Below, one piece after another: positions 4,279 through 64,000 of a stretch of DNA of 64,000 nucleotides. The DNA comes from Owenia fusiformis. Its lineage: Eukaryota > Annelida > Polychaeta > Sabellida > Oweniidae. Position 1 is the stretch's first letter; each line of letters opens with the position of its first letter. Under the pieces are notes generated by a model, which was given only the letters and a program-made list of their open reading frames with translations, was not told where the DNA came from and searched no databases. The position numbers and the translations under genes are program-made. The DNA lies in contig CAIIXF020000003.1 of assembly GCA_903813345.2 (NCBI GenBank), positions 6,905,815-6,969,814 of the forward strand. Direction: 5' to 3'.

Positions 4279-7200
4279 CTAATGAGCGGTTAACATCCCC
4301 GCGCACCCACCATCTTCGTGTTTCAACAAAAGTGACATTCTGCTAAATGTTTTACTACAACATTTACAGCTGTACTTTTTCACATCTGAGTGAGTTTGCA
4401 GATGTGCTCTAAGGTTGGATCTGTCCGCAAAAGCACGTCCGCAATGTTGGCATTTGAATGGCTTCTCGCCAGTATGGGTCCTTATATGGCCTTGGAGCAA
4501 CCAAGGGCGGGAAAATGCTTTGCCGCAAAGTTTACACTTGCACGGTAATGTATGAGTCCTAATGTGCATTTTCAGTGCCCCGAGTGAGATGTAAGTTTTT
4601 TCACAATATTTACAGTTGAATTGTTTCTTTACTTGAGTAACACAGTGGAATTGTTTGTGTTTAGAGAGTCCACTGAATGTTGAGTAACTTTTGTTGCAAG
4701 CCTCGCATTGGTATCTTGGGGGTTCCCCCTCTCGTTTCCTTTTCCGGCTGTCAAGGTCAGAGGTCATAGCCTCGATGCTCCATGGCAGTTTTGGTTTGTC
4801 CATGGTCAGTTCTTGTGATTTAGCGCTGACGGGTGAAGGTATAGTGTCTGTTGGTGATCTCTGCATTCGATGTATGTCTGCAGTGAGGTAGTGGTCATGG
4901 GTCCTGGGGGACACGTGCCCGGGGGAGCGGGAAAGGGGAACCAGTGGTGGAGCAGGTATTGCATGATACGCCGAAGTTGGGGAGTACGGATGTATTGTTG
5001 GGTGCATCGGGGGATACTTGAATGCCTCAGTCGGGGAGAACTGACTCGATTTCAATGGGTCTGAGTGGTACTTGAAGACATCAGGAGAATACTTGTAAGG
5101 ATCAGAAGGGTATTTCAATGTTTCATGTGCATGTTGCGCATGCGCAGTGTGTAAGCTATGCAATTGTTGGAGTCGCTGGTGGAAGCTAATACCGAGATAT
5201 GGGTGGCCCATGTTCGTAATGTTCGTTACGTTTGTGATATTATTCTGCCAAAATCGAGGATCATGCATCCTTAGAGCGTCCATCGGATGTGGCTGCACGT
5301 GCCCAAATGCCCGATAATCAGGAATAGATGGCTCTGGTTTCGCTATTGGTGTTGTGCCGCTGGGTGGCGTCGTTGGTTTCTGCATTTGCAGACGATCTTG
5401 GTAACTCTCGGTTGGAAGTGGAGATTGTTTCATTGGCAGACGATTGTTGTTGTGAATACTGGTAATAATAGCTGGAAATAAAAGAAAATAGAATTAGTTG
5501 AAGGTTAAAGATCGTTTGAGTTTAGTTAATCTTATTTTGACAATCACATTTGAGCTATCGTTAAGACAATCACCAATCAAACAGAATCAATCTAATAAAT
5601 TAGTTCTGATAATAAGAGCTTCAAAAGTCGGTGGATGCGCACCTGTGTGATACTACAGGCTACATTTTCGTATAATCAAAAATCAAAGACTAAACAACCC
5701 AATATACAAGATGAGCGCAATCAAATGAAGAATATCAAAACTGATCACGAAAAAATTTTCCCCTTTCCAACGTCTGTTTAAAATAGGCCTATCGCTTCTT
5801 TTATTTCTGCTTTTCTTTCCCATTTTACATTTCAATATTTCGTTTCATTTCAAAATAGTGTAAAATGAGAACGTTGATTTATTTAACATATTGGCGGCCA
5901 TCGAGCAGGTGTATGTGAAGGAACGTGAAACTGCTTCGTCTTTTATTGCTTAATTAGACAGTGCGATGGAATTAATAACGCGCGCTTGGTTGGCTGCTTT
6001 GAGCTGGTGTCAATACAATTCCGATGGTAGGGTATATGGTTTCAAATGACATTGATATCCGCACAAATAAAATCATCGGAAGTGGCGATGAAAAAATCAG
6101 TTGTGATGGGATTCCACACGGGAGGTTTCTATTCATAAAGAGGTATGCCTTTTCCCATATGGCTTTGTGTGTCATGTGCCAAATAGTAGAAGTTGCGATG
6201 GCGGTCCTCGGGGATCCGTGAATTATGGGATGTCTGTGTTGACTTTGGTAAAACAGGTTGTTTGATTACTACAAGCGACAAATGGAAAGTTTGTCACTTT
6301 GATATACTGTAAAACATTATGTTGATCAAATTGTTTGCGTTTTACAAAGCCCAGTCATTTCTTACAAACACCAAACAAAATGGATTAGCGCATCCTCGAT
6401 CTCTTCAATTGATGTATTAATATCAAGTGTTGATTACAAACTACATGTTTTAGATGATAAAGATGTCAAATTGATGTCAGTCTCTAATGTGGGAACTTTG
6501 GAGGGTTAATCCTGTTTGCTAAGATGCTAATATAGGGATTAACAGCGGATTAGGATTAACGATATTGCAACCCGTGTTACTTTCTGGTTCAGACAAGAAC
6601 GAATGTTTGGTTGATACTGATACAACCAAACAAATTCCTTTGGATGGTTTTCGTCCAATGCAATGTAAAATCTGTCCCGTCTTCCAAGAACATTTTACTC
6701 TGCTCAAGCCAATCGATTTGGTCTGTAAATTAGTAGTTTGATTCCATTAGACGCAAGAATTTAGTCTAACTTTACAACCAAACTAGAGAGATATTGACTA
6801 ATCCCCCACTATATTCGATTAAGTCGCCAAGAACCTGTTTCGAGGGCTTATTGAAAACTTTTATAGCAATCTCTTAAGAGTCAATTCCTTTAAAAGCTTT
6901 CAGGCGCAAGTGTATAAGCTTTTTCTTTTTATTAGTTCCTGTAAATCAACTCCGAAATGATATGTTCTATGACTTTATATACTATTGACACAAAAATTGA
7001 TTCCAAATAAGCGGTCCAATGGCATAGGTCTAATGTATTTAAGTGTAATATAAATAAACTCCCTTAAAGCAATACTTTCAATTATTAGTTTCAAATGTAA
7101 GCTCCGTTTTGTTAATATACCCTTCATTTATGTCACGTGGAATCATACAATGTGACATCTATGTCAAATCCCAAATGAAAGTGAAAGTTTATTTAAATAT

Positions 7201-14242: not shown

Positions 14243-14492
14243 CGATTGTTTTTCTTCATTTGTCATAAGTAATCAATCCTTAATTCCTCAATTATTTGCA
14301 ACGTATAGCCTAACAAATATATCTTATGAATTTCAATAATTTTAGACATTATATAGTTGGAGAAGGACGACAATGAAATCTCTGCTAATCTAGCTACAAA
14401 CCAGGCTGCAAGACAACTTAAGCGACATCCAGCCCGGGCGTCCAGCCATCATATTACCGCATACACACGGCCCATGACCGTCGATCACACTA

Positions 14493-16583
14493 ATGAAGCC
14501 CTTCAGTCGAGAAGTTGACTCAACCATGTCATCGTCGATACAGTTCCACCACAGGAAAGTAAGAAGTAGCTGGCCTACTCTGTTATCAATATACCTCATC
14601 TATCTCATACTGTCTTGCGTAGTGGGCGTATCTGCCCAAACGCCATCGACGTCACAATGTACCACGACTGTTGATGGCGCTGAAAGAATTACGAACTGTA
14701 GCAGTTTGGGATTGAGTTCGGTTCCAGTTGATCTGGACCCATTAACCACAGAACTATATCTCGATTACAACAATATTAATACAATCAGGGACAACTCATT
14801 TTCGTATCTTCAACAATTGAAAACTTTGAGTGCACGTAGTAATGGGATGGTTACTATTGAACAACGTGGTTTAGCTGGACTAACCGAGTTAGATGTTTTA
14901 GACCTTTCGGATAACGAATTGGTTTCTATATCTGCTGAGGCACTTGATAACTGCAACCCCGATCATGTAACAATTGACGGCAATCGTTTTACGGAGGAAA
15001 CATTACGTCAATTTTCATCAACTCTTGCTGGCAAGAGACTGTCTAAATTGTCAGTGAAAGGGAATCCAACATTTGTAAACATTACGCAGGACACTTTCAA
15101 ACCTATTTTCAATTTACAGTTTCTTGACATCTCAGGCTGCGATATTAAAAGCTTGCCTAAAAGTGCTTTCGATGGATTTAGGCGCCTAAAAGAACTTCAT
15201 ATAGAAAACAATACCAACTTAGCTCATATTGATAACGATGCATTTTTGAACATGCAGCAACTGGAGACATTATCGTTAGCTGGGTGCGCCTTGGAGCGTG
15301 TAACAAATTTTTTAAAAGACAAAGCTGTGGATCTACAATCTTTATATAACATGGACTTGTCTCGAAATTTGATTTCAACTATTGATGCGTACTCATTTTA
15401 TCCAATGAAATCCATCCGACACCTTGATTTAAGTCGGAACAAAATTGAACGGATCACAATTTATTTCGAATTCGTCGGACTTACGGGTTTAAAATATTTG
15501 AATCTTAGTAGAAACCCTCTTTTCTCCATTGCTGGTAACTCTTTTCGTGGCATGTCTGATATTGAAACATTGGATCTGAGCGATTGCCAGTTTTCCAGTT
15601 TAAGAGGTCAAGAACTTTATGGACTCTATACTTTGTCTATACTATATTTGAACAACAATCCTTTAACTCTCCTGTCAGACACCGTCTTTAAAAACCAGTC
15701 AAGCATGTCTGAAGTACATCTCACCAACTGCCGGCTGACGGAATTGACAGCGTCATTCAAAGGACATGACTTCATTAAAATAGTTGCAGACAATAACCGA
15801 ATCAGAAACATCGCTCCCGATGCATTTGACGGTTGTACCCGCCTAAATGAAATCCAGGTTCAAGGGAATAATCTCCAAACAATCCCTGATGCACTATGTA
15901 GCAATCCAAACATACAGAAAGTTGATATATCAAATAATAAGTTCAACAGCATAGATTCCAAAACTACGGATTGTTTACGGAAGTGGAGCTTTTTTGACGG
16001 TAGCAAGAATCCATACACGTGTGATGGAAGACTCGTGGACTTCACTGTATTTGCAAACGACACTGGAAGGTCTGTAGTTCAACAATGGCCAGATGGATAT
16101 CGCTGTAATACCCCTATAGAGTGGCAAAATCAAACAGTTCACCATTATATCAATACACAGTGGCTAACTACAACAACGACAACCACCACAACAACGGTTG
16201 CTCCGACAACGGAAAAGGTGACAACTGTTCCTACAACAATAGCTACTACTGTGACTACAAATACCATAGCAACTACTTCACCTTTTATCACAACAACCCT
16301 ACCTTTAACACCAACAACCAACAAATTAGAAAACATTTCAGAACCTTTTGAAAGTAGGCAAATTAGTGATCGTGATATGGTCATCATTTGTCTATCCACA
16401 TTGCTTGGTGTTGCCTTCATTATTTTTCTAATTGTATTATTGTACGTTGTTATCTTTAATGGGCCACGAAGAAATAAATCATGGACAGTGAGAAGTGATA
16501 TGGATAACTCACATAAGCAATCATACAATAAATTTGAAATGACAAACATTGAGATACGCATACAAATAGTAGGTAGACAGTAG
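14493..16583 (+). CDS. Single-exon leucine-rich-repeat type I membrane protein
   Basis: This is an uninterrupted 696-codon frame. A second in-frame ATG at 14526 would give 685 aa; either start leaves a hydrophobic signal segment (LLSIYLIYLILSCVVGVSA, cleavage probably before QTPS). A Cys-containing N-terminal cap (about residues 55-80) leads into roughly 15 LRRs with LxxLxLxxN cores (about 80-515). A C-terminal cap has NPYTCDGRL and a later Cys. A mucin-like Thr-rich stalk (about 560-610), one transmembrane helix (MVIICLSTLLGVAFIIFLIV, near 630-655) and a short basic cytoplasmic tail of about 40 aa follow. No Ig, FN3 or TIR domain is present, so it is not a Toll or LRIG protein. It is probably a cell-surface adhesion or ligand-binding receptor; the ligand is unknown. 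Confidence 0.85.
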   Translation: MKPFSREVDSTMSSSIQFHHRKVRSSWPTLLSIYLIYLILSCVVGVSAQTPSTSQCTTTVDGAERITNCSSLGLSSVPVDLDPLTTELYLDYNNINTIRDNSFSYLQQLKTLSARSNGMVTIEQRGLAGLTELDVLDLSDNELVSISAEALDNCNPDHVTIDGNRFTEETLRQFSSTLAGKRLSKLSVKGNPTFVNITQDTFKPIFNLQFLDISGCDIKSLPKSAFDGFRRLKELHIENNTNLAHIDNDAFLNMQQLETLSLAGCALERVTNFLKDKAVDLQSLYNMDLSRNLISTIDAYSFYPMKSIRHLDLSRNKIERITIYFEFVGLTGLKYLNLSRNPLFSIAGNSFRGMSDIETLDLSDCQFSSLRGQELYGLYTLSILYLNNNPLTLLSDTVFKNQSSMSEVHLTNCRLTELTASFKGHDFIKIVADNNRIRNIAPDAFDGCTRLNEIQVQGNNLQTIPDALCSNPNIQKVDISNNKFNSIDSKTTDCLRKWSFFDGSKNPYTCDGRLVDFTVFANDTGRSVVQQWPDGYRCNTPIEWQNQTVHHYINTQWLTTTTTTTTTTVAPTTEKVTTVPTTIATTVTTNTIATTSPFITTTLPLTPTTNKLENISEPFESRQISDRDMVIICLSTLLGVAFIIFLIVLLYVVIFNGPRRNKSWTVRSDMDNSHKQSYNKFEMTNIEIRIQIVGRQ

Positions 16584-18837: not shown

Positions 18838-19016
18838 ACTTCCTCGTCTTAGATTTGGTTATTGTTAAACTGCATAGTTGATAAAGTCGCAGATATTAAA
18901 TTAGATTAATAAAAATGAGTATTAAAATCAATTAATTAAATTAATTATCTAAACCGAATGTTCAAGGCAGAATTCAGTTCTGATCATAAAGATAGGACCA
19001 ACGGAGGTTAAGAAAT

Positions 19017-20102
19017 ATGGAAATATTGGAAGATATCAACAGAAGCAAAGACTCAACGTCGACTGAAGTTAAGAGATTCTTCGCAAAGTCGCAAGAAAGT
19101 GAAAGAACGCAACGAGACAATGATTTTGACAAACGCAAGAATGCCATTGTATTGGATGATGGTGACAATTATCAAATGAATGACGATAAAGAAGACGATG
19201 AATCGAATAGGCCTATTCCTGTAGAAACGAAAGCTGGAGTTCTTCAGAGATCGCCCGTCCACAGGAACCCCGTGTTTGATGACGCAGTGCGTAAGAGAGC
19301 ACGCATGCGCAAAGACTCTGGAACTGAGCCGAAAAAAGGGTACTTCCGTCGTCCAAAACCCCCATATTCGTACATCGCACTCATTGCTATGGCGATTGAA
19401 GACTCACCTAAGAAAAGATTAACACTTTCAGAAATCAACGACTATCTCATGAAAAAGTTCGACTTTTTCCGAGGTGCATATACAGGTTGGCGTAATTCCA
19501 TTCGGCACAATTTGTCGCTGAACGAGTGTTTCACGAAGGTACTACGTGATCCTGGACGACCTTGGGGAAAAGACAACTATTGGATGATCAACCCGAACAG
19601 CGATTACACGTTCGCGGATGGCATTTTCCGACGTCGCCGTAAACGTTTAAATCGACGAGCAAGATCACCGTACGCCGCGGGGTGTTCGACGTGCGACACT
19701 TCTGGAAGGAACGCCGATAGTTCCCATATGGACAATAAATTCAACGGACCATTCAGTATTGAGAGTTTACTTGGGGACGCAACGAATCATGAACCAGAAA
19801 ACAAAGTTCTTCGAATTAGAGACTCTACAGATGCGCTAAATAGCCACCCCACCCATCGGAATCGCAAGTTTGAGACAAACACGGACGTCGTTCCAAATCC
19901 GTTCCGGATGAATGCAGCGAGTAGGGCCCTTCCTCATCCACATCCGTTAATGTTCACGCATGCGCACACAGGACTGAATCCAATATTACCGCATGGAATG
20001 ATGGTCCCCAATGGTGCAATTATACCACCTTATCTCTACTGGGAACCTATGTTCCTCTTTTACTCCCACCTCAGAGCATCTCAGCCATATCTTTTCAAAT
20101 AG
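19017..20102 (+). CDS. foxQ1: Forkhead transcription factor, FoxQ1 type
   Basis: This is an intronless 361-codon frame. The forkhead domain spans about residues 113-213, with [14 protein letters not shown], the recognition helix [16 protein letters not shown] and the wing sequence [20 protein letters not shown]. The signature [12 protein letters not shown] together with [11 protein letters not shown] is that of FoxQ1 rather than FoxC, FoxF, FoxL1 or FoxQ2. The N-terminal 110 residues are charged and unstructured. An FSIESLLGD segment at 246-254 resembles an eh1 motif that binds Groucho/TLE corepressors. The C-terminus is rich in Pro, His and Tyr. Vertebrate FoxQ1 is also intronless and somewhat longer. 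The start is the first ATG after the candidate TATA box. Confidence 0.92.
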
Positions 20103-21364: not shown

Positions 21365-21770
21365 GATATTGAAAACTGTTCATTTGCTTCGTGAATAAGA
21401 AATTAAAGCATCCAACGTTAGATCCTGTTGTTGAAGATTATACGCCTCTGTGTTTTTGAATGTCAAAACTTTATGTTCATGCATATTTTCAAAGTAATCT
21501 TTGATTTCTTTTCCTATGTTTGCTGTTATGAACTCACCCAGATCGCAAGAATTCTGAACATGAATATTGATTGGTTTTGTTGCATCTGTTTGTATTTCGT
21601 GATCATTATCCGTTGTCCTAACAGCACTGATGTTATTCAATCTACTGGTGATGAGTCGACTCATCACTGGTCAGTAGATTGAATAACATAATATTTAAGA
21701 TCGTAGCTTGCATTAATTTGTCCATTGTCTTTGTCACATGATGCCCACCGACTGACTCGCTTACTAGCGA
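21365..21770 (-). pseudogene. Broken partial copy of the ankyrin gene 3' end
   Basis: On the minus strand, 21375-21620 translates to a stretch nearly identical to the functional gene (about 23117-23360): DATKPINIHVQNS, DLGEFI, NIGKEIKDYFENMH and KVLTFKNTEAYNLQQ are shared. The copy lacks the last roughly 40 codons, ends early, and beyond 21620 is replaced by a palindrome. A further block (21696-21770) matches 23644-23720, so more than 250 bp of the parent is missing between them. No introns or ankyrin exons are included. It is a truncated segmental duplicate, not a gene. Confidence 0.8.
21630..21689. repeat. 60-bp palindrome inside the pseudogene
   Basis: ATGTTATTCAATCTACT at the left and AGTAGATTGAATAACAT at the right are exact inverted copies around the core TGATGAGTCGACTCATCA. 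Only a few bases are unpaired. It sits where the duplicate jumps between two parts of the parent sequence. Confidence 0.85.
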
Positions 21771-22996: not shown

Positions 22997-25900
22997 TCAA
23001 CTATGAGCATTTACTCCGGGATACAGACCACCATGTTTCGTGTAACCAGGCAGTTTTTCTTCCAGTTTTAACATTTTCTTCAGGGCAATTTCAATTTCTC
23101 GGTTTTTCCTAGGATTTTGAAAATCATTAATTTGTTTCGTGAATAAGAGGTGGTCCAATGGTAGATCTTGCTGAAGATTATAAGCCTCTGTATTTTTGAA
23201 TGTTAAGACTTTGTCTTGATGCATATTTTCAAAGTAATCTTTGATTTCTTTTCCTATATTTGCTATTATAAATTCACCAAGGTCGTACGAATTCTGAACA
23301 TGGATGTTAATTGGTTTTGTTGCATCTATTTGTCTCTGCTCTCGATCATCATATGTTCTAATGGCACCATAGGCCACTCGATCGTTTTCCTCTTCCGACT
23401 CATCACCACTTTCCATACGGGGTTGTATTTTATTTTGTGTAGGCCTATGGGTTTTTATCTTCGCTATTGGTTTTGACAGCCCTGTAACTGAACCACCATC
23501 TACCGAAGAGCTAAACTGTTCTACAATGGTTCCTCTATCAAGCGACCCATGTTGGTTGCACGAAGATAACGGTGAGTCAAATATCGCAGCTGCTACGGAT
23601 TTCCTTTCTCTATTAGAACCAGTAACATCATTTTCACGACCTTTACTATTGTAGCTTGCACCAGTTTGTCCATTGTCTTTGTCACAGGATGCCGTCCGAC
23701 TGGCTCGCGAATTGGGATAAGGCGAGGGCACATGCTCCGATTGAGGTGATGGTTTCGGCCAAACTGCATTCCGCCAATTGGAACAGTCGCTTGTGACTTT
23801 TGAATCTCTGGGGACTGGGGGAGGAAGATAAAGTCTCAAAGGAGCTATCACAGGTCTATTTCTATTTTGGTCTGTTTGTCTCATTTTCGCTGAATGACGG
23901 TCATTAGGACAGATTGGCATATCTTTTTCCTCATTAATCTGACGTTTTCTTCGGTCCTTCCTATTAGTATGTGTCTTAAAATCTTCTCTACCTGGTGTTA
24001 CTTGTTCGGAGCTAGAAATGAGATTTTCTTCGGCACTAGCGTTGAGATGATAAAGTCCAGCCACCGTGTCCATGTCCCCCAAACCTTTGTTAGGTTGGAA
24101 GATATCGATTGGGGCTATATCCTTTATGATTGCTTCTTCCCGAGAGTTCGGTGTTTTTTCAGTTGCGTTGGATACCATTTGCTGTTGACTGATATCTTTG
24201 GTGTCTGTCTCACGAGACATTCGCCTATTGACCTTCTGTCTTATCCTCTTCAAACGTTTCTCTTGCAGTTTAGCTTCAGCTGCTTGCTTCTCTTTCATTT
24301 CAGCTTCAAGCAAAGCGTCCATACGTTTCTGCGATATCATATCATAGTGTGCGGTGAATATACGTTTCAGATTGTTCAGAGATTCTTCTGGTATAAAACT
24401 CGAATTATCTTCTATGAATCTAAGTTTCACGTTTTTTGATACACACGAGAAATATTCAGTGAGATGGGTAAAGGCAAAGGGTGTGTCTTTATTTTCTACG
24501 ACGCTTTTTTCATCGCTAGTATTACCTTGGGAGTCATCTTCGTTGGTGTTATGTATAGATTCTTCGTTCGTTTCATATTCTTTTCCTTTCACTAGACGTT
24601 TCTTTCTCGATTTCTGTTTTATTTTCTTGACTTTCTCCTTCAATAGAAGTTTTGATTCAGTTGATGATGACCTATCGCAGTGACGGAGAAGATTTCCGGC
24701 GTCCGCGAATCTCCAGATATTGTCCAAATCGGATACATTCAGCCGCACCCACTCCACTCCAGCTGGTGTACTGGCCAAGCAGATTAGAATAGCTATAGAT
24801 GTGGTGACGTCCCAATTATAGTCCAAAAGGAAAACACCAGTGATTGCCCCATTGACTCTTTGAAAGAACTCCATCAAGCATAGCATCATTTCATTACAAT
24901 TCAGAAAACGATCGATGATTTTTGTTTTCTTTGCGAGGAATCCATAGAACAGCAAATCCATCCACGCTGTACAATCTTCGTAAGAACCAAACGTTGAATA
25001 GTCGAAGAAACGGGAGGCGTACATTTGCCAAAAGTTTTTGTTTTGGGTGACATCGAATCCAGTTCGGTAACCAAATCCCATGTCTTCTTTAGTGAAGGTT
25101 GCCAGAGGTGCTATGCAAAGTATACACGATCGATGCTGTATCGATGTTTTGTATTTTTCTTGCGGTTTCATTTTCCACGATTTAAACTTCACCTAAAAGT
25201 ACACAGCACTTGTATTATGCAAATTGTCATTTTAAAGATGCATTCCGCCATAGGTCTCTCCCCCAGACAATCAATGATGTCCTATTGTTATTGCTCATAT
25301 AAAATCTCACATACCATGGATATATCTTGAGAATAACTTGTGGGTATATTATTGCCGAAATATCGGAAATAATCAACAGAACAACCAAACTCCAGAATTA
25401 AACACAATCGATTTCTCGGCTAGCGAGGGGAATCCCCTTTGAGTCACACAACCGCCTTAGAGCCAGGCAGCCAATCAGGTTTATGATAAACAAATTCAAC
25501 GACCAATCAGATAACAGGAGGACTTTCCCAGTATATTCAAACTTCAGATTGAATTAATTCCTTCGAAAATAATTAGCTCGGCCAGCACAATACTAAAATT
25601 AACACTGAAAGAGGGGGATTTGTGACTTCTTCTTTGGTAAGTAGATGGGTAAAAATGTGGTGAAACTCAATATGCAAAAAAGTCCAGAGGGGTCTTGATT
25701 GTGCTATCCTATGGCATAGAGCCTCTTTAACAATTTCTTGCCTCATTTGAGCTAAACTGGTTTTCTATTCTAGAACCACTATTTGATCAATTTTGTAACG
25801 AGCACAGGACTGTACAGTGTTATTCTAGATATTCGGAAGCTGAAACGTATTGATCACACGTATACATATGTGTAATACGAACCTTGAGATATTGAGGTAA

Positions 25901-30399: not shown

Positions 30400-32084
30400 T
30401 ATTATTTTGCGACTATAAATGTGCACTCTAATAATAATTAATCGTTGTATTTACATTGTACGAAATTCCTACTTAGTTTCATCGACCTTTGTACAACCTT
30501 TGCTACATAAACCCTGATTACGCTTTCATAAGTCTGAAGTCACTAATATTTATGTTAGTATTAAACACGACCAGCATACATGCATATATACCGTACATAC
30601 ATGTATATTAAGTTCGAATACTGAATAAATCGCTCTCTGAAAATTGTTTCGATATTTTATGGATGAACATTGCATTGGATATTAATGAGTTGTATGATGC
30701 TGTACGTCGTATTAAATGTATCACTCGCGATCGAGATGACATGACATTGACGATCAAGTCAGTGGAGTTGTGTATATGAAGATTGAAAAAGATATACACG
30801 TTAACACACGTGTCTTTGGAGTATTCAACAAAGAGTTGTAAGCTTGAGCATCAAAATTCAACACAAACATCTGAACATACAGTCGTTTACGATATTCATC
30901 TATAGTTCAATGAGAGCACGAGGGTTGTCCAAAAATTGCTAATAACAGGCCTAGGTAAGTCTTCTTTTCATGCGCTTGTCTCAAAAATTAAGCTGATAAC
31001 GACGCATTCTCTTTTCCCTTGTCGATATTGTAATAAAATAATAGTTTTGCTTAAATTGTTACTTGGTGGGGGGGGGTTCATTTGGATGGGGAGTCCATCA
31101 TTTAAATGCGATATCTGCAAACAAACACGACAAAAAGTAACAAACGTTTATAATTAAAGATGAAATAATCATAATGAAATCGTTATCATTAATACTACAT
31201 ATTAACGATATAAACCGATTAAATGTAACCTACTTATTCATGTTTTAACATTGTAAACAAAGATAAAGACAAAATTCGATAAAGATGAAAGTTTAAGAAA
31301 CACGTGCCAGTAGTTCCATTTGTAAAGGTTCAATAAATAGGACTACAACCTGTACTTAAAAAGGTCATGAAAACAGAAATTGCCAAATATCAAATGAATC
31401 ACGTCGAATGCATGCGAAGATTTACAGTTTAAAGGTAATATCCGGGTTTATAATAATAACAGTAAAAATAGACAGCAGTGTATGTTTTACAGGGTTAAAA
31501 ATTTGTGTATGGAAAAATTGAACTAACAAGTAACGCCATGATGAAAATCCCCAATATCTCCTGATGGAGAAGCTATGGTGTAGTTATTGATTGTGATATT
31601 GAGATCTGTGTCGGTATCGTCGTTGTTCATAAATACTTGGAAATATTAAAACTATTTTTCCATCACTTGAAAATGTCTCAATATAAGAGATTTCGGGAGT
31701 TTGAAAGAATAAAATGTGCCATTGAAATATCAAGGAATTTTGTAACAGAGCTTATATCTAGTTATCGATATGATAGATTTTGTGGAGGTGGTGTGAAGAA
31801 GCCAAAAAGCAGGAATTAAATCTTTTGCTTGGAAATATCAGTTGCTGGAGGAATTGTATTTTGTCTACATAGTAGATGGTAATGTATGTTCGATAACATG
31901 CACTTGTCAATGAGAAGTAGTGAATCATGATCATTCCCTTGAGACACACATGCAAACCTACACACACGGAATGAGTTAGCAGTTTGCTAAATACCTACAT
32001 TTTGACCTAACCCATAAATTATACGTACAATGACCCTAGACTTGATGTTCTGTTTTTATTAATTTGTGTTGTACTTGGTTGCAG
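30400..32084. other. Region upstream of the SLC46-like gene
   Basis: No coding region is supported. A CCTAG|GTAAGT donor-like site at 30954-30955 could close a 5' non-coding exon that splices to the acceptor before 32085, but nothing else confirms it. A G-run lies at about 31069-31077. Confidence 0.35.
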
Positions 32085-32102
32085 GTAACAGTTGATACCA
32101 TC

Positions 32103-34587
32103 ATGTCGGACGAGAAGACGCCGCTCCTAGTTGATACAAATTCCAATGTGCCGTTAAAAGAGGAGACTAAAAACTATGACAGTGGTACTATTAAAGACGA
32201 TGACACTAAGGCCGATGATGTGACGCAACGTAAAAAGCAACGGCTTATTGTCGTGGAGCCGGTGCTATTCTGTTTAGTGATCGGGGCACTGGCGAGTGCT
32301 CCACTAATGCAGCAATACATTTACGCCGAACTTGCCGAGGAAATGAACATTACACTAGTTAATAATAACGATGATAATACGCAATGCAAATACGTTAATG
32401 AAACTAGTGTTGAGTATCTGAACGAACAACGGGTTCAACAACAGACTTCGTATTGGATGATATACATTACGATTACGTACGGATTGCCTGCAATATTTTC
32501 CACAATGATTTTAGGTTCTTATAGTGACAAAAAAGGCAGAAAAATTTGTCTGATTCTTCCTATAATTGGAGAGACGTTCAGGTCATTAACTGTCGCCTTA
32601 GTTGTTATTTTCCATCTGCCTTTGCCTTTACTGTTGGTGGGAACCTTTGTCAGTGGTTCAACCGGGTCATTTTTAACTGCATTGGCCGGTTGCAACGCCT
32701 ATATCACAGATACTACAAGCATAAATGGGAGGACGATACGACTAGTCATCATGACTGCAGTTCTGGGGGTAGGCCAAGCCCTTGCCTATATTGGCACAGG
32801 ATACCTTGTCCAAATCTCTGGCTTTCTTTATCCATTTATAGGAATTGTAGTGATATTACTTTTGAGCCTATTGTACACAGTGTTCCTAGTACCTGAGACG
32901 GTGCCAAAGATGCCGAAAGAGGCGAATCTTATTAAGGACCGCGTGGTTAAATCCGTGCTGATATTCACCAAGGACAATGGCACCAATAGACAGAAAGTCC
33001 TCCTTATGCTTCTTTTTATTTTCCTTGTCTCGTCCTTTACTGTTGTCAGCGCAGGGGAGGTGGTCACTCTGTACCTCCTTAACACACCACTGTGTTTCAA
33101 CTCCACCATGATCGGCGTCTATAATGCTGTCAAACTAGTGCTTTCTAATATTATCGGTACAGGTCTTTTGGGGCTTTTGCAAAGATGTGTTCCAGATCAG
33201 TGGATGGTCATCGTTGGATTGATGTCAGGCGCCCTCAACGCACTTGTAATGGGATTCGCTGGCGATGTCCCTACTGTCTTTATAGGTAAGAATTTCAAAA
33301 ATGTTTTCTACATATAAGCTGATTGGTCAGGGTCTAAATTTCAAATTACAAATGTGTACCGTTTTTGTAAAACAGGTATAGTATTTTGTAACTTGTAAGT
33401 ATAACTTGACTGATTTGGCACAAGTACAAAGGGCAGAAGCTATTATAACTGTTTTGGAGAATAAGTTGAAAAAGTATTAATCAACTCGTCTGATAAATTG
33501 ACTTAATACTAGTTTCTATTTTAGCGTTAGTCATGGGAGTGTTCCAGTCAACAACGACGCCCCTTCTGATGTCAATAGCCTCCAAACAGATAGATCCAAG
33601 TGAAACTGGTAGGAAATGTTCAGTCACTATTTCTTGTTTCCGTCCTTCCGTCTGACTACAGATTGACTGTGGTTATATATGGTAGCGGATGGGGGAGGTG
33701 CGACAAAAATATGGGATAAAAGTGAAATATGAAAAGTGAACATTACATATAATAAATTTGGCACACCAAGGCAACTACATATTCATATGATTAATTATAT
33801 GAAATACTGCCCCTCTTTTCATGTGCCTTACCGTGACATTATTAATGGCGTTGTTAAACCTTACCATCACAAAACTTTCCACCATAAAACTGAAACTTAC
33901 TTTTCGGCCATTTCATCTTATGATCTACGTAGGTTTTTTCCGTACAGTAGACAACACATGAAGCATACTATTTATCAGTTTATATACCTTTAGTTACTAT
34001 TCCAGGATCGCTATTTGGAACAATATCTAGCGTTCAGCTGATATGTTTAACCCTGGGAGGATCGTTGTCAGCTTTGGTGTATTCTGCCACCCTCCTGTGG
34101 ATGCCGGGGTTCGTTTTCTTCCTCCTAACCGCTGTTTACGCCTCTGCAATATTACTTATGCTGTGAGTAGGCTATGGTTTGATATTTTGAGTTTTTATAA
34201 TTTTGTGCCTAAAAGTAGGGTTTGTTTTTTAAACATAACTACATTTAATTATCTTGACCAAGGCCCAATCATTAAATTCTAGGAGCACGCTTAGCCTCAA
34301 GTTCCTTAGTCTAAGTACTATATCTAGTAGACCCACGCCTCAACAAAGTTCATATTGCGTTAAGATAATTGTCAAATAATCCAGAGAATTTAAAAATTCT
34401 AAAAAGTTGTTTCCTTTTTAGGGTGCTCATAAAAATGCTTCGTGACAGAAAAAAGATTCCCGGGGGAGGATTGGTTGAAGTTAAAGACGACAGTGCAGAC
34501 GACAATCAAGGACAGTCGGAAGATCTCATTAAATCTAGTCGATTTGAAATGTCACTTTCAAATAAACATGATGCTATAAATAAATGA
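32103..34587 (+). CDS. SLC46-like major facilitator transporter
   Basis: Four coding exons are read: 32103-33285, 33525-33608, 34006-34162 and 34422-34587, joined in frame with GT-AG junctions, giving 529 aa. The ATG at 32103 is the first after a probable acceptor (TTGCAG|GTAACAG, exon start 32085); it follows the 5' UTR. A cytoplasmic N-terminus of about 45 residues begins MSDEKTPLL, a dileucine-type sorting signal. About 12 transmembrane helices follow. The long glycosylated first extracellular loop has NIT and NET sites. The MFS signature GSYSDKKGRK (138-147) lies between helices 2 and 3, and the helix-5 region has GGYLVQ-like Gly-rich packing (IGTGYLVQISGF). The layout resembles SLC46 proteins (proton-coupled folate transporter and relatives). 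The substrate cannot be assigned. Confidence 0.88.
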
Positions 34588-39526: not shown

Positions 39527-39557
39527 GTCACGTGACCTGAAGATGAACAAGATGGCG
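39527..39557 (+). promoter_or_regulatory. CACGTG and YY1-like motifs at the syntrophin start
   Basis: GTCACGTGAC (39527-39536, a USF-type E-box palindrome) lies 7 bp before the ATG. AAGATGGCG (39549-39557, a YY1-type motif) overlaps codons 3-5. Both are common near TATA-less transcription starts, and no TATA box is seen nearby. Confidence 0.45.
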
Positions 39558-40020
39558 CCGGTCGGAAAGACGGGAATGTTAGAAGTTTACATTCGACAGC
39601 AATGGTGTCGAGTATTTGTGACTTTAGCGGACGATGCGCTAGTTCTAAGCCTAGACGATACACCACAGAACACACAGTTAGTCAACGGATCTTTGGATTT
39701 ACAAAACAACCGGTCAAAATCGGAAAGCGATGCAAGCCTCCAAAATCGGGATCTTCCAGAAAGCATTGCAGGGCAAAAAAGGGTGGTACGGGTTTCAAAG
39801 GAGGAACAAAATGGACTTGGAATCAGTATTAAAGGAGGCAAAGAGAATAAAATGCCAATTTTAATAAGTAAAATATTCAAAAGCATGGCAGCAGACAAAA
39901 CTGAAAAACTTTATGTCGGTGATGCGATTCTCTCTGTAAATAATGAAGACCTTCGAGAGGCAACTCATGATGAGGCTGTTCGCGCACTCAAGCGTGCTGG
40001 AAAAACTGTTGATTTAGAAG
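39543..40020 (+). CDS. Syntrophin, coding exon 1 (PH1 half and PDZ)
   Basis: The start ATG at 39543 ([11 protein letters not shown]) gives 159 codons plus one base up to donor AAG|GTAGGT. The GTG at 39513 is not used. Residues 11-40 ([21 protein letters not shown]) match the first strands of the split PH1 domain. The PDZ domain runs about 79-162, with the carboxylate loop GLGISIKGG (91-99), [14 protein letters not shown] and [14 protein letters not shown], all typical of syntrophins. The family links dystrophin/dystroglycan complexes at the membrane to channels and nNOS. It matches the alpha/beta type better than gamma. The gene continues beyond the window; see 63075-63454. Confidence 0.93.
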
Positions 40021-40195
40021 GTAGGTGGTTTGCGTCTGATTTGCGATAAGACCTGTATGCAGTATGTTAGTATGTATCCAACAGAATATAGTCTAACCTG
40101 TATGTGTCTCATATTGACGATTAATAATTGTAAACAAACTGGTACTTTCCCACGACAAGGGCGATGTCAATGCGATAGCATGAATGTTGTCCAAG

Positions 40196-44536: not shown

Positions 44537-45015
44537 TATAAATATCCATGTAATTTGAATGCCCATGTTATTTGAATATTCATTTAATTTGAATATCCAT
44601 GTAATTTGAATGCCCATGTAATTTGACAAAATCCATGCAATTTGAATGCTCATATAATTTGAATGTACATGTTATTTGAATGTACATGTAATTTGAATGC
44701 CCATATTATTTGAATATCCATGTTATTTGAATGCCCATATAATTTGAATGCCCATATAATTTGAATGCCCATGTAATTTGAATGCCCATATAATTTGAAT
44801 ATCCATGTAATTTAAATGTCCATGTTATTTGAATGCCCATATAATTTGAATATCCATGTAATTTGAATGCCCATATAATTTGAATGTTCATATAATTTGA
44901 ATGCCCATATAATTTGAATATCTATATAATTTGAATGCCTATATAATTTGAATATCCATGTAATTTGAATATCCATATAATTTGAATATCCATATAATTT
45001 AAACGTCCATGCAAT
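44537..45015. repeat. 17-bp minisatellite, about 28 copies
   Basis: The unit TAATTTGAATGCCCATA (with variants TAATTTGAATATCCATG) repeats for about 475 bp with few indels. Long frames on the minus strand in this stretch (MGIQITWIFKLYGHSN repeats) are a by-product of the stop-free 17-bp period, not genes. Confidence 0.9.
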
Positions 45016-45862: not shown

Positions 45863-47410
45863 CCACTGGAAGCTCAAGCTCTAATGTAGTCAATGAAACA
45901 GATATAAAGCATTTAACCTTCCAAAAAGTTGGTTCACTTGTTTTTTTTTCAATCTGAAATTGCTGCGATACAGTTTCTATTTTAGTGATTTAGAATTACA
46001 AATAAATGAGCTCTATTGTGATCGTCATATTCCTCCAATATTCCTCTTTTATTTTAGAAAGAGAGAAAAATCATGAAATAAGCATGGATTTTTATTTACA
46101 CGGGTATGCAGCTTTAGGCTTTTTTTGCATCTGTCTGTAGAAGTAGATTATTCAAGTCAACATTTAGATTCTGGTTCTAATCCTGCCATGGTGTAAATTA
46201 ATAGGAGAAAATTGAGAAATTATATTTCACCACCAAGTTTATAATAGGTGAAAGAAATCATATGGGCTGTAAACCTTGATTAAAGTGTAACATATAAATG
46301 TTTGGAATTCGAAGGCAGTTTTGTATATTAACCCCACAATATGGCTACTTGGGAGCCTGCCTTGTCACTCTCAATAACCAGTCCAGACCCTTCTTGGGGT
46401 TGTTTCACGTTAGAGGCATTTTTTGGGGACTTTGTCCAAGACTGAGTAAATAACATGGTCTATATTTCACCTTATTGGAAACATGCTGATGAATTAATCA
46501 AAATTTAAATAGTGATTTTACCCATTACAAGAACTTGAATTCATCTAGACTTTAAATTATGAATGATTCTTATCCTGTCACTGTTATCATCAGATAAAAC
46601 ATACTAGCTGATATTAATTTGACATTCTAACTCTAACGTAGAGCCATGAAAGCTAGCTACATTTGAGAACATAAGATCCTGAAATGATAAAAAATTGTCA
46701 GAGGGTCGTTTGAATTGCTAGTAAGAATTTCTAGATAATTCAGGGTATGAATAGCTGGAGTGAATTAAAGCTTTTCTAAAATCTTAGGGAGAACATTGAC
46801 ATGTGAAAATTGTTATCAACATACTTGTATATTATTTTCTCATATTCTTTACTAATGGAACAAAGGATACAGATGTCATTATTGATACAATGATACCCTT
46901 CTCTTATAAAAAAAAGAGATATATCCGAAGAATAGCGCTTTGTTTTCTCGTGTCAGCCTTCTATTTTCCATTATAGGCATTTTCTTTTGGTTATTATATT
47001 CTAACAAAGGAACCTAATTTTAGATTGTAGAGCTTTCTTGAACAAAATTTCAAAAAATGATTGATAATGATATCAATAATGACAATTCATTTAGATTTTC
47101 AGGAAAATCTCTTGAATAATTGAAGACTTGTTCAAAAATTGATTCTTAGGTTACGAGAAAGCTTTCAGTAAAAACAATTTTCCGACAAAACTAAAAGGAT
47201 TTTTAACAACAAGATTTGCGAATATAATAAATGACAATCTTCAGCAAATATACACTCAAGCAATTATTCAGAATAATCCTCGCATCTTTTATCCGTTTAG
47301 ATCATAGGGGGCAGAGAAGCCTTTATGAATATATCATATTTTCTACAAGAGTTACCTTGAATAACTGGCACTGATTCTATAGAATTGATTGCTGAGTTGA
47401 ACATAACCAA

Positions 47411-48250
47411 TATATCATGATCAGAACTAGAATTCAATGAAATACAGAGTGCAACTATATATTCTCAGTTTGTCTGCGTAGTCCTAAGCGCCACTCGGAT
47501 TGGTCAAAGTGTTCAGATTGAAAGGTGTTCACATTTAACATAACTTTTATATATCATGATCAGAACTAGAATTCAATGAAATACCAGAGTGCAACTATAT
47601 ATTCCAAGTTAGTCTGCGTAGTCGTAAGTGCCACGTGGATTGGTCAAAGTGTTCAGATTGAAAGGTGTTCACATTTAACATAACTTTTATATATCATGAT
47701 CAGAACTAGAATTCAATGAAATACAGAGTGCAACTATATATTCTCAGTTTGTCTGCGTAGTCCTAAGCGCCACTCGGATTGGTCAAAGTGTTCAGATTGA
47801 AAGGTGTTCACATTTAACATAACTTTTATATATCATGATCAGAACTAGAATTCAATGAAATACCAGAGTGCAACCATATATTCCAAGTTAGTCTGCGTAG
47901 TCGTAAGTGCCACGTGGATTGGTCAAAAGTGTTCAGATTGAAAGGTGTTCACATTTAACATAACTTTTATATATCATGATCAGAACTAGAATTCAATGAA
48001 ATACCAGAGTGCAACTATATATTCCAAGTTAGTCTGCGTAGTCGTAAGTGCCACGTGGATTGGTCAAAGTGTTCAGATTGAAAGGTGTTCACATTTAACA
48101 TAACTTTTATATATCATGATCAGAACTAGAATTCAATGAAATACCAGAGTGCAACTATATATTCCAAGTTAGTCTGCGTAGTCGTAAGTGCCACGTGGAT
48201 TGGTCAAAAGTGTTCAGATTGAAAGGTGTTCACATTTAACATAACTTATC
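47411..48250. repeat. 139-141 bp tandem repeat, six copies
   Basis: Units start TATATCATGATCAGAACTAG at 47411, 47550, 47690, 47829, 47970 and 48110, with a diverged seventh start after 48248. Two alternating variants occur: CTCAGTTTGTCTGCGTAGTCCTAAGCGCC and CCAAGTTAGTCTGCGTAGTC. The shared GGTGTTCACATTTAACATAA block belongs to the R2 family. Confidence 0.92.
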
Positions 48251-48289
48251 TATCACAATCAGAACTAGGATGATATACCAGTTCTGAGA

Positions 48290-63074: not shown

Positions 63075-63454
63075 TGAAATATTTACGGGAAGTGACACCC
63101 TATTTCCGCAAGTCATCTGCACTCAATGACCTCGGATGGGGGACCCCTGAGGGATCAAAAGGAGATCGCAACAGTCAAGTCTCGGAAAAAAAGACAATAC
63201 CATTAAGACTATGTTATTTATGTCGAAACCTAACAATGCCTGATTCGGAAAATAGGACAATTGAATTACACAGTCCCGATGCTAAAAGTTCATGTATATT
63301 ACGGTGCCCGGATGAACAAACTATGTCAGAGTGGTTTCATAATTTACATTCAAATATTGAGTTGCTTACACATATAGCCATGGCGGAAGTGAATCAGAAT
63401 ATAGGGGGAGGTACTCCCAGAGAGATTAAACACATGGGATGGTTGGCTGAACAG
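63075..63454 (+). CDS. Syntrophin, coding exon 2 (PDZ end and second PH1 half)
   Basis: Acceptor TTTCCAG|TG joins exon 1 in phase 1 to read VKYLREVTPYFRK, the standard end of the syntrophin PDZ. IPLRLCYLCRNL, ENRTIELHSPDAK and TMSEWFHNLHSNI are the second half of the split PH1 domain. REIKHMGWLAEQ precedes the donor GTATGT at 63455 in phase 0 and matches the family. The remaining exons (PH2 and the SU domain) lie beyond the window. The frame continues open through the donor into the repeat array, so the exon's real end is uncertain. Confidence 0.92.
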
Positions 63455-64000
63455 GTATGTACCTTATTTTTACAAGGGGGAGACACTCCTAGAGAGATTA
63501 AACACATGGGTTGGTTGGCTGAACAGGTATGTACCTTAGTTTTACAAGGGGGAGGCATTCCCAGAGAGATTAAACACATGGGTTGGTTGGCTGAACAGGT
63601 ATGTACCTTAGTTTTACAAGGGGGAGGCACTCCCAGAGAGATTAAACACATGGGGTGGTTGGCTGAACAGGTATGTACCTTAGTTTTACAAGGGGGAGGC
63701 ACTCCCAGAGAGATTAAACACATGGGGTGGTTGGCTGAACAGGTATGTACCTTAGTTTTACAAGGGGGAGGCATTCCCAGAGAGATTAAACACATGGGTT
63801 GGTTGGCTGAACAGGTATGTACCATAGTTTTACAAGGGGGAGGCACTCCCAGAGAGATTAAACACTTGGGGTGGTTGGCTGAACAGGTATGTACCTTATT
63901 TTTACAAGGGGGAGACACTCCTAGAGAGATTAAACACATGGGTTGGTTGGCTGAACAGGTATGTACCTTAGTTTTACAAGGGGGAGGCACTTTCAGAGAG
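63404..64000 (+). repeat. 72-bp in-frame tandem array of an exon end plus its splice donor
   Basis: Eight donor sites (CAG|GTATGT) occur at 63455, 63527, 63599, 63671, 63743, 63815, 63887 and 63959, exactly 72 bp apart, plus a partial unit at the window edge. Each unit carries GGGTPREIKHMGWLAEQ (the end of syntrophin coding exon 2) then VCTLVLQ, with no stop codon in that frame. Units 63455-63526 and 63887-63958 are nearly identical (both have GACACTCCTAGAG), suggesting a six-unit higher-order period. The frame at 63394-63990 on the minus strand is its shadow. Confidence 0.95.

Follow-up and report, generated by a model that had tools for sequence, protein, structure and literature searches.

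The end of coding exon 2 in a syntrophin gene lies within a tandem array of 58 copies of a 72-bp unit, each carrying the same splice donor. The array is very likely a mirage-type minisatellite, in which splicing runs from donor 1 to exon 3 and removes the other copies together with the intron. Minisatellites on exon-intron borders are an already known phenomenon, and the novelty here is one of degree, namely the 58 copies and the probable occurrence outside cephalochordates. With 58 donors at a conserved gene, the array is a very large case of a little-studied phenomenon, and sampled arrays at unrelated genes add more such cases in the same genome.

The syntrophin gene and its domains

The window, the whole 64,000-nucleotide stretch of DNA that was analysed, corresponds to C3:6905815-6969814 in a genome of 498 Mb in 525 contigs. 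Coding exon 1 (39543..40020, + strand) encodes the PDZ domain (1.1e-18), begins at a putative start codon taken as the first in-frame ATG, and is followed by the donor GTAGGT at 40021. Coding exon 2 (63075..63454, + strand), supported by splice sites and phase, encodes the second half of PH1 and the first residues of PH2 (PH_17, 4.7e-26) and also matches alpha-1-syntrophin 1z87 (1.6e-10). Exons 3-6 lie beyond the window, at window-extended 69118-69260, 71778-71974, 73220-73416, and 74504-74596. AG precedes each of exons 2-6, GT follows each of exons 1-5, and exons 1-6 joined give 495 residues with zero internal stops. In Pfam, the joined product of exons 2-6 matches PH_17 (4e-25), PH (1.1e-15), and Syntrophin_4th (1.5e-43), and PH_17 has a single match genome-wide. 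The gene is a complete 495-residue syntrophin, with the PDZ, PH domains, and C-terminal domain in the expected order.

The Pfam PH match, which is PH2, spans residues 119-225 of the exon 2-6 product, and the exon 2/3 junction comes after residue 127. The end of exon 2 and the start of exon 3 are both phase 0. Joining from donor 1 leaves PH2 unbroken, so the protein loses nothing if the other copies are intronic.

The 72-bp array

Within the window, the array occupies 63403..64000 (+ strand), where Tandem Repeats Finder reports a period of 72, 8.3 copies, 94% matches, and zero indels. It overruns the window edge by 3.6 kb and ends at window-extended 67593. The full array in the genome (L003:918-5108) has 58.2 copies at 96% matches, again with zero indels; in the assembly, this amounts to 58 full copies, each exactly 72 bp, and a 15-bp partial copy. 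Such an array is far beyond chance.

The unit combines the final 51 bases (17 codons) of exon 2 with the initial 21 bases of intron 2. Copy 1 is the end of exon 2 itself, with its exonic part at 63404-63454. The first donor, GTATGT, is at 63455..63460 (+ strand), and identical donors recur at 72-bp intervals as far as window-extended 67559. Together with the preceding CAG, the donor forms a 9-mer, CAGGTATGT (CAG/GTATGT), that is identical in 58/58 copies and agrees with the U1 consensus at 8/9 bases. The unit spans the exon-intron border and carries a copied splice signal, the two traits by which a mirage minisatellite is recognized.

Each copy has 0-3 mismatches to the consensus, for a total of 90, and the 13 variable sites make up 21 unit types in irregular order. 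Mean identity between copies is 0.96-0.97 at all distances tested along the array, and copies 1 and 16 are identical; this flat profile and the identical pair point to homogenisation. The array's first and last 15 bases differ at one base, which is consistent with a duplication between short direct repeats.

The array most likely originated by tandem duplication and growth. A 72-bp segment over the exon 2/intron 2 border may have been duplicated, perhaps between two short direct repeats, and the array would then have grown to 58 copies through slippage or unequal exchange, with homogenisation. The donor in use is most likely donor 1. It would be joined to exon 3, and the remaining 57 copies would occupy the initial 4.1 kb of the 5.7-kb intron. 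Splicing would survive because copy 1 preserves the true end of the exon together with its donor.

Several features of the array were already noted in the sequence-only reading of the window. It named the host gene as a syntrophin, in agreement with the PH_17, 1z87, and Syntrophin_4th matches, and it rightly placed the last 17 codons and the GTATGT at 63455 within the unit. The donor-duplicating 72-bp array that it described is real and does run beyond the window edge; its count of eight copies gives way to 58 full copies once the array is followed past that edge. The claim that every donor choice stays in frame is also sound, as both sides are phase 0, the 72-bp period is a multiple of three, and no copy contains a stop.

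Meaning of the open frame

The exon 2 frame is stop-free across the array for 1391 codons, and the genome search gives a 1546-aa open frame around exon 2. One antisense frame of the array is open too, for 1392 codons, and the remaining four frames contain 55 to 121 stops. Where the units are homogeneous and the period is a multiple of three, any frame that lacks a stop in one unit lacks it in the others as well. The open frame is most likely a by-product of these two properties, and it was rejected as coding evidence because the antisense frame is equally open. The rough chance of an in-frame, stop-free array is 8-23%.

The changes between copies offer a further view of coding. Of the 15 distinct changes, 5 are synonymous and 10 non-synonymous. 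No codon constraint is visible between units when 5:10 is compared with the 47:154 possible changes that make no stop (Fisher P = 0.36), a comparison of few events and low power; two of the 10 non-synonymous changes always co-occur, so that 5 versus 9 is an equally fair count. Selection on the donor copies was also considered. Given the 13 variable sites, the invariance of the donor 9-mer in 58 copies has P = 0.15. A 24-base run around the donor is likewise invariant in 58 copies (P = 0.053), which counts against the mirage reading. Neither value is convincing for selection, and this candidate was set aside.

Other roles for the repeat were considered and rejected. No stretch of the array passes on its own in Pfam. 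The best PDB matches of the array are entries named THR1 (2e-05) and THR2 (0.064), which were put down to repetitiveness, and the repeat is not taken to be a known protein domain. The units are poor candidates for 72-nt introns since a pyrimidine tract is lacking before the CAG, with 7/20 pyrimidines versus 16/20 and 14/20 at the exon 2 and exon 3 acceptors. As cassette exons, the units would use a candidate AG (the first found with at least 11/15 pyrimidines upstream) that yields a 50-nt exon and breaks the frame.

Other donor-bearing arrays in the genome

Similar arrays were sought in the genome with a pattern of three MAGGTRWGT motifs spaced 56-86 bp. The pattern has 807+734 matches versus 284+163 for the backwards motif; as matches overlap within arrays, these numbers do not translate into numbers of arrays. 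Among the 1541 pattern matches, the first 100 represent 9 arrays within the first 44.8 Mb of C1; the backwards motif, counted without one dispersed family, gives 3 arrays in the same C1 stretch. With a second pattern, CAGGTAAGT, there are 124 matches versus 50 backwards, and the first 100 of the 124 represent 10 further arrays. In all, the upstream sequence of 19 arrays was examined.

For 9/19 arrays, the open frame that ends at the first array donor matches a known protein. These arrays (L014, L030, L032, L033, L035, L036, L038, L040, and L041) sit on the donors of nine unrelated genes. The exons encode parts of a Rieske protein (3.4e-8; also 3d89), CFAP74 (6e-8), liprin-alpha (4.1e-4), prolyl-tRNA synthetase (ProRS, 5.1e-9), a KIAA0895-like protein (4.1e-6), caprin (2.3e-6), a family that Pfam names Il2rg (7.6e-8), PP2A B56 (1.2e-10), and a protein kinase (1.6e-4, below Pfam's cut-off) that we take to be MOK. 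Two more of the 19 (L034 and L037) look exonic, without a convincing protein match, and 7/19 are apparently off exon ends (A, C, D, E, and G on C1, L039, and L042). Array A was judged in one orientation only; its forward reading had no array donor. The L039 array begins ~75 nt past an apparent exon donor, with no Pfam match. At L043, the last of the 19, an array of 76-bp units with donor-like motifs takes up the entire 4 kb examined, and matches extend across about 8 kb of C11.

The 12 exon-linked arrays, including that of syntrophin, have periods of 72, 38, 61, 25, 57, 74, 17, 62, 57, 42, 65, and 34 bp. The period is divisible by three in 4/12, which equals the chance expectation. As the other eight periods are not divisible by three, tolerance needs no open frame, and the persistence of frame-breaking exon-linked arrays suggests that border arrays are tolerated here whatever the frame. 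Only the syntrophin array has a constant open frame to its end. The CFAP74 array stays free of stops for 7.0 units in a frame that shifts, and the other ten hit a stop within 2.1 units. That the syntrophin array alone has a constant open frame is what a coding reading predicts, and it counts against the mirage reading.

A control set of 17 backwards-motif arrays was drawn from 25 places among the first 100 of 447 matches, after removal of 8 copies that belong to one dispersed family. Two of the 17 start on exon ends, one at a thrombospondin type 1 exon (L047 around 1006; TSP_1, 2.6e-15) and one at an SLC6-type transporter exon (L051, - strand; SNF transporter, 2.5e-11). A further control array has a DHO dehydrogenase exon (1e-15) upstream of it. 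The two exon-end controls indicate that border arrays are not confined to the strict donor motif, and any preferential seeding at splice sites is to be judged on a small sample whose control itself holds exon-end arrays (2/17). In the 67-bp unit of L029, only a few bases separate an acceptor-like CTACAG from a donor-like AAGGTGAGT, and a donor-like GTAAGT lies on the opposite strand.

Comparison with known systems

The closest relatives of the syntrophin array are the mirages of amphioxus. These are described in Adh3, the globins BflGb6 and BflGb9, troponin C, and PGBD5 as minisatellite-like tandem duplications over the exon-intron border, with splicing reported as undisturbed; the units measure 10-72 bp for Adh3 and are longer in the globins, at about 150-160 bp (PMC3087553, PMC3902484). 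Like them, the syntrophin array spans the border and copies splice signals. It differs in that its period is a multiple of three and its frame is open, and in its 58 copies compared with the 3 and 6 given for amphioxus BflGb6 haplotypes (PMC3087553). All the named mirage cases are from cephalochordates, which is not a defining trait. The GC content of amphioxus is about 0.41 and that of the window 0.357, so the host species is probably not amphioxus. Searches of the genome for GFP-family and mollusc haemocyanin proteins, run with no positive control, gave no match, which does not establish their absence. COX1 likewise had no match, although the controls of that search gave matches in 8 of 14 genomes, and the mitochondrial genome is probably missing from the assembly. 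If the host species is not amphioxus, mirages are no cephalochordate peculiarity.

Human IFI6 (6-16) contains a minisatellite with a 12-bp unit. Two downstream repeat units are reported to serve as donors and to give three mRNA species (PMC4526556, citing Turri 1995). In both IFI6 and syntrophin, a minisatellite supplies several splice donors; use of the later donors has been shown for IFI6, whereas it is hypothetical for syntrophin. Since nearby repeat donors are usable in IFI6, minor syntrophin isoforms with a few extra units are plausible.

Other repeats share parts of this arrangement. The human CBS 31-bp VNTR, c.1444_1467+7, is described with 16-21 copies and substitutions between units and, like the syntrophin repeat, crosses from coding sequence (position 1467) into the intron (PMC2630376). 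Unlike the syntrophin array, its period is not divisible by three and its copies are fewer. Human genes in segmental duplications are also reported to carry repeats at exon-intron borders (PMC2812944), and in fission yeast, multiple 24-bp AGGT duplicates are spanned by an intron (PMC4974935). Each 72-bp syntrophin unit runs GT...AG, from its donor to the CAG of the next copy, which recalls the Rogers model of intron gain through tandem AGGT duplication, but the syntrophin intron existed already. In the mostly open-access literature considered here, border-spanning arrays occur in chordates, and the cases outside chordates are tandem AGGT duplications (fission yeast). Purely intronic minisatellites outside chordates are reported in earthworm metallothionein (PMC12783039) and an abalone TSSK1-like gene (PMC6905558).

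Alternative explanations

An alternative to a single functional donor is that several are used, generating syntrophin isoforms with differing numbers of 24-residue units in PH2. With a period that is a multiple of three and no stop in the unit, a later donor, if used occasionally, would lengthen the early part of PH2 by 24 residues per unit and keep the frame. All 58 donors are identical, U1-like at 8/9 bases, and in phase 0 with stop-free units, and the two downstream repeat donors of IFI6 provide a precedent (PMC4526556). However, no codon constraint is visible between units, the insert would land inside PH2, most other exon-linked arrays are incapable of in-frame use, and amphioxus mirages are reported as normally spliced (PMC3087553, PMC3902484). 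On these grounds, variable donor use is unlikely. It is more doubtful still that the 58 in-frame donors act as a chance length selector, with the number of PH2 units varying by transcript and array length by individual; were this true, the syntrophin scaffold would be length-polymorphic through donor choice. On this view, the many exon-border arrays of the genome could feed new isoforms and introns. A permanent extension of the exon, in which splicing would run from the last donor and every protein would contain 57 units (1368 residues), is scarcely credible. The frame is open through the whole array as this would demand, but the antisense frame is just as open, codon constraint is again not visible, domain matches amount to none beyond repetition-driven scores, and 1368 residues would be put into PH2.

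The sequence-only reading had proposed isoforms or an extended exon, with the repeats inserted between PH1 and the rest of the protein. The insert instead falls inside PH2, after about its ninth matched residue. The equally open antisense frame, the lack of visible coding constraint, and the unbroken PH domain obtained from donor 1 speak against that proposal, and the genome lends it no support, with only 4/12 exon-linked arrays having a period divisible by three. An error of assembly in the copy number or in the entire array was also weighed. Homogeneous arrays are prone to collapse or expansion, and the BflGb6 mirage is reported as misassembled in the amphioxus draft (PMC3087553), but the 21 unit types in irregular order with zero indels argue against one duplicated read, and exon-border arrays are present at unrelated genes of the same assembly. 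Such an artefact is very improbable.

The mirage-type minisatellite spliced from donor 1 thus remains the preferred explanation. Arrays of this kind are natural experiments in which the spliceosome chooses one among dozens of identical donors. They are also a trap for gene predictors and readers, as the 1546-codon open frame is probably mostly intron, and they warn against taking open frames in tandem arrays as coding.

Other features of the window

Several open frames lie near the syntrophin gene and encode a C2H2 zinc-finger protein (4279-5493, - strand), a leucine-rich-repeat protein (14478-16583, + strand), a forkhead protein (18996-20102, + strand), and an MFS transporter (32046-33317, + strand). 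The open frames at 21380-21670 and 22997-25192 (- strand) share a similar stretch, DATKPINIHVQNS, and are perhaps a partial tandem duplicate; the 731-aa open frame of this pair has no Pfam match. The window contains two further tandem arrays, one with a 17-bp unit repeated 28 times (44541-45015) and one with a 140-bp unit repeated 6 times (47410-48268).
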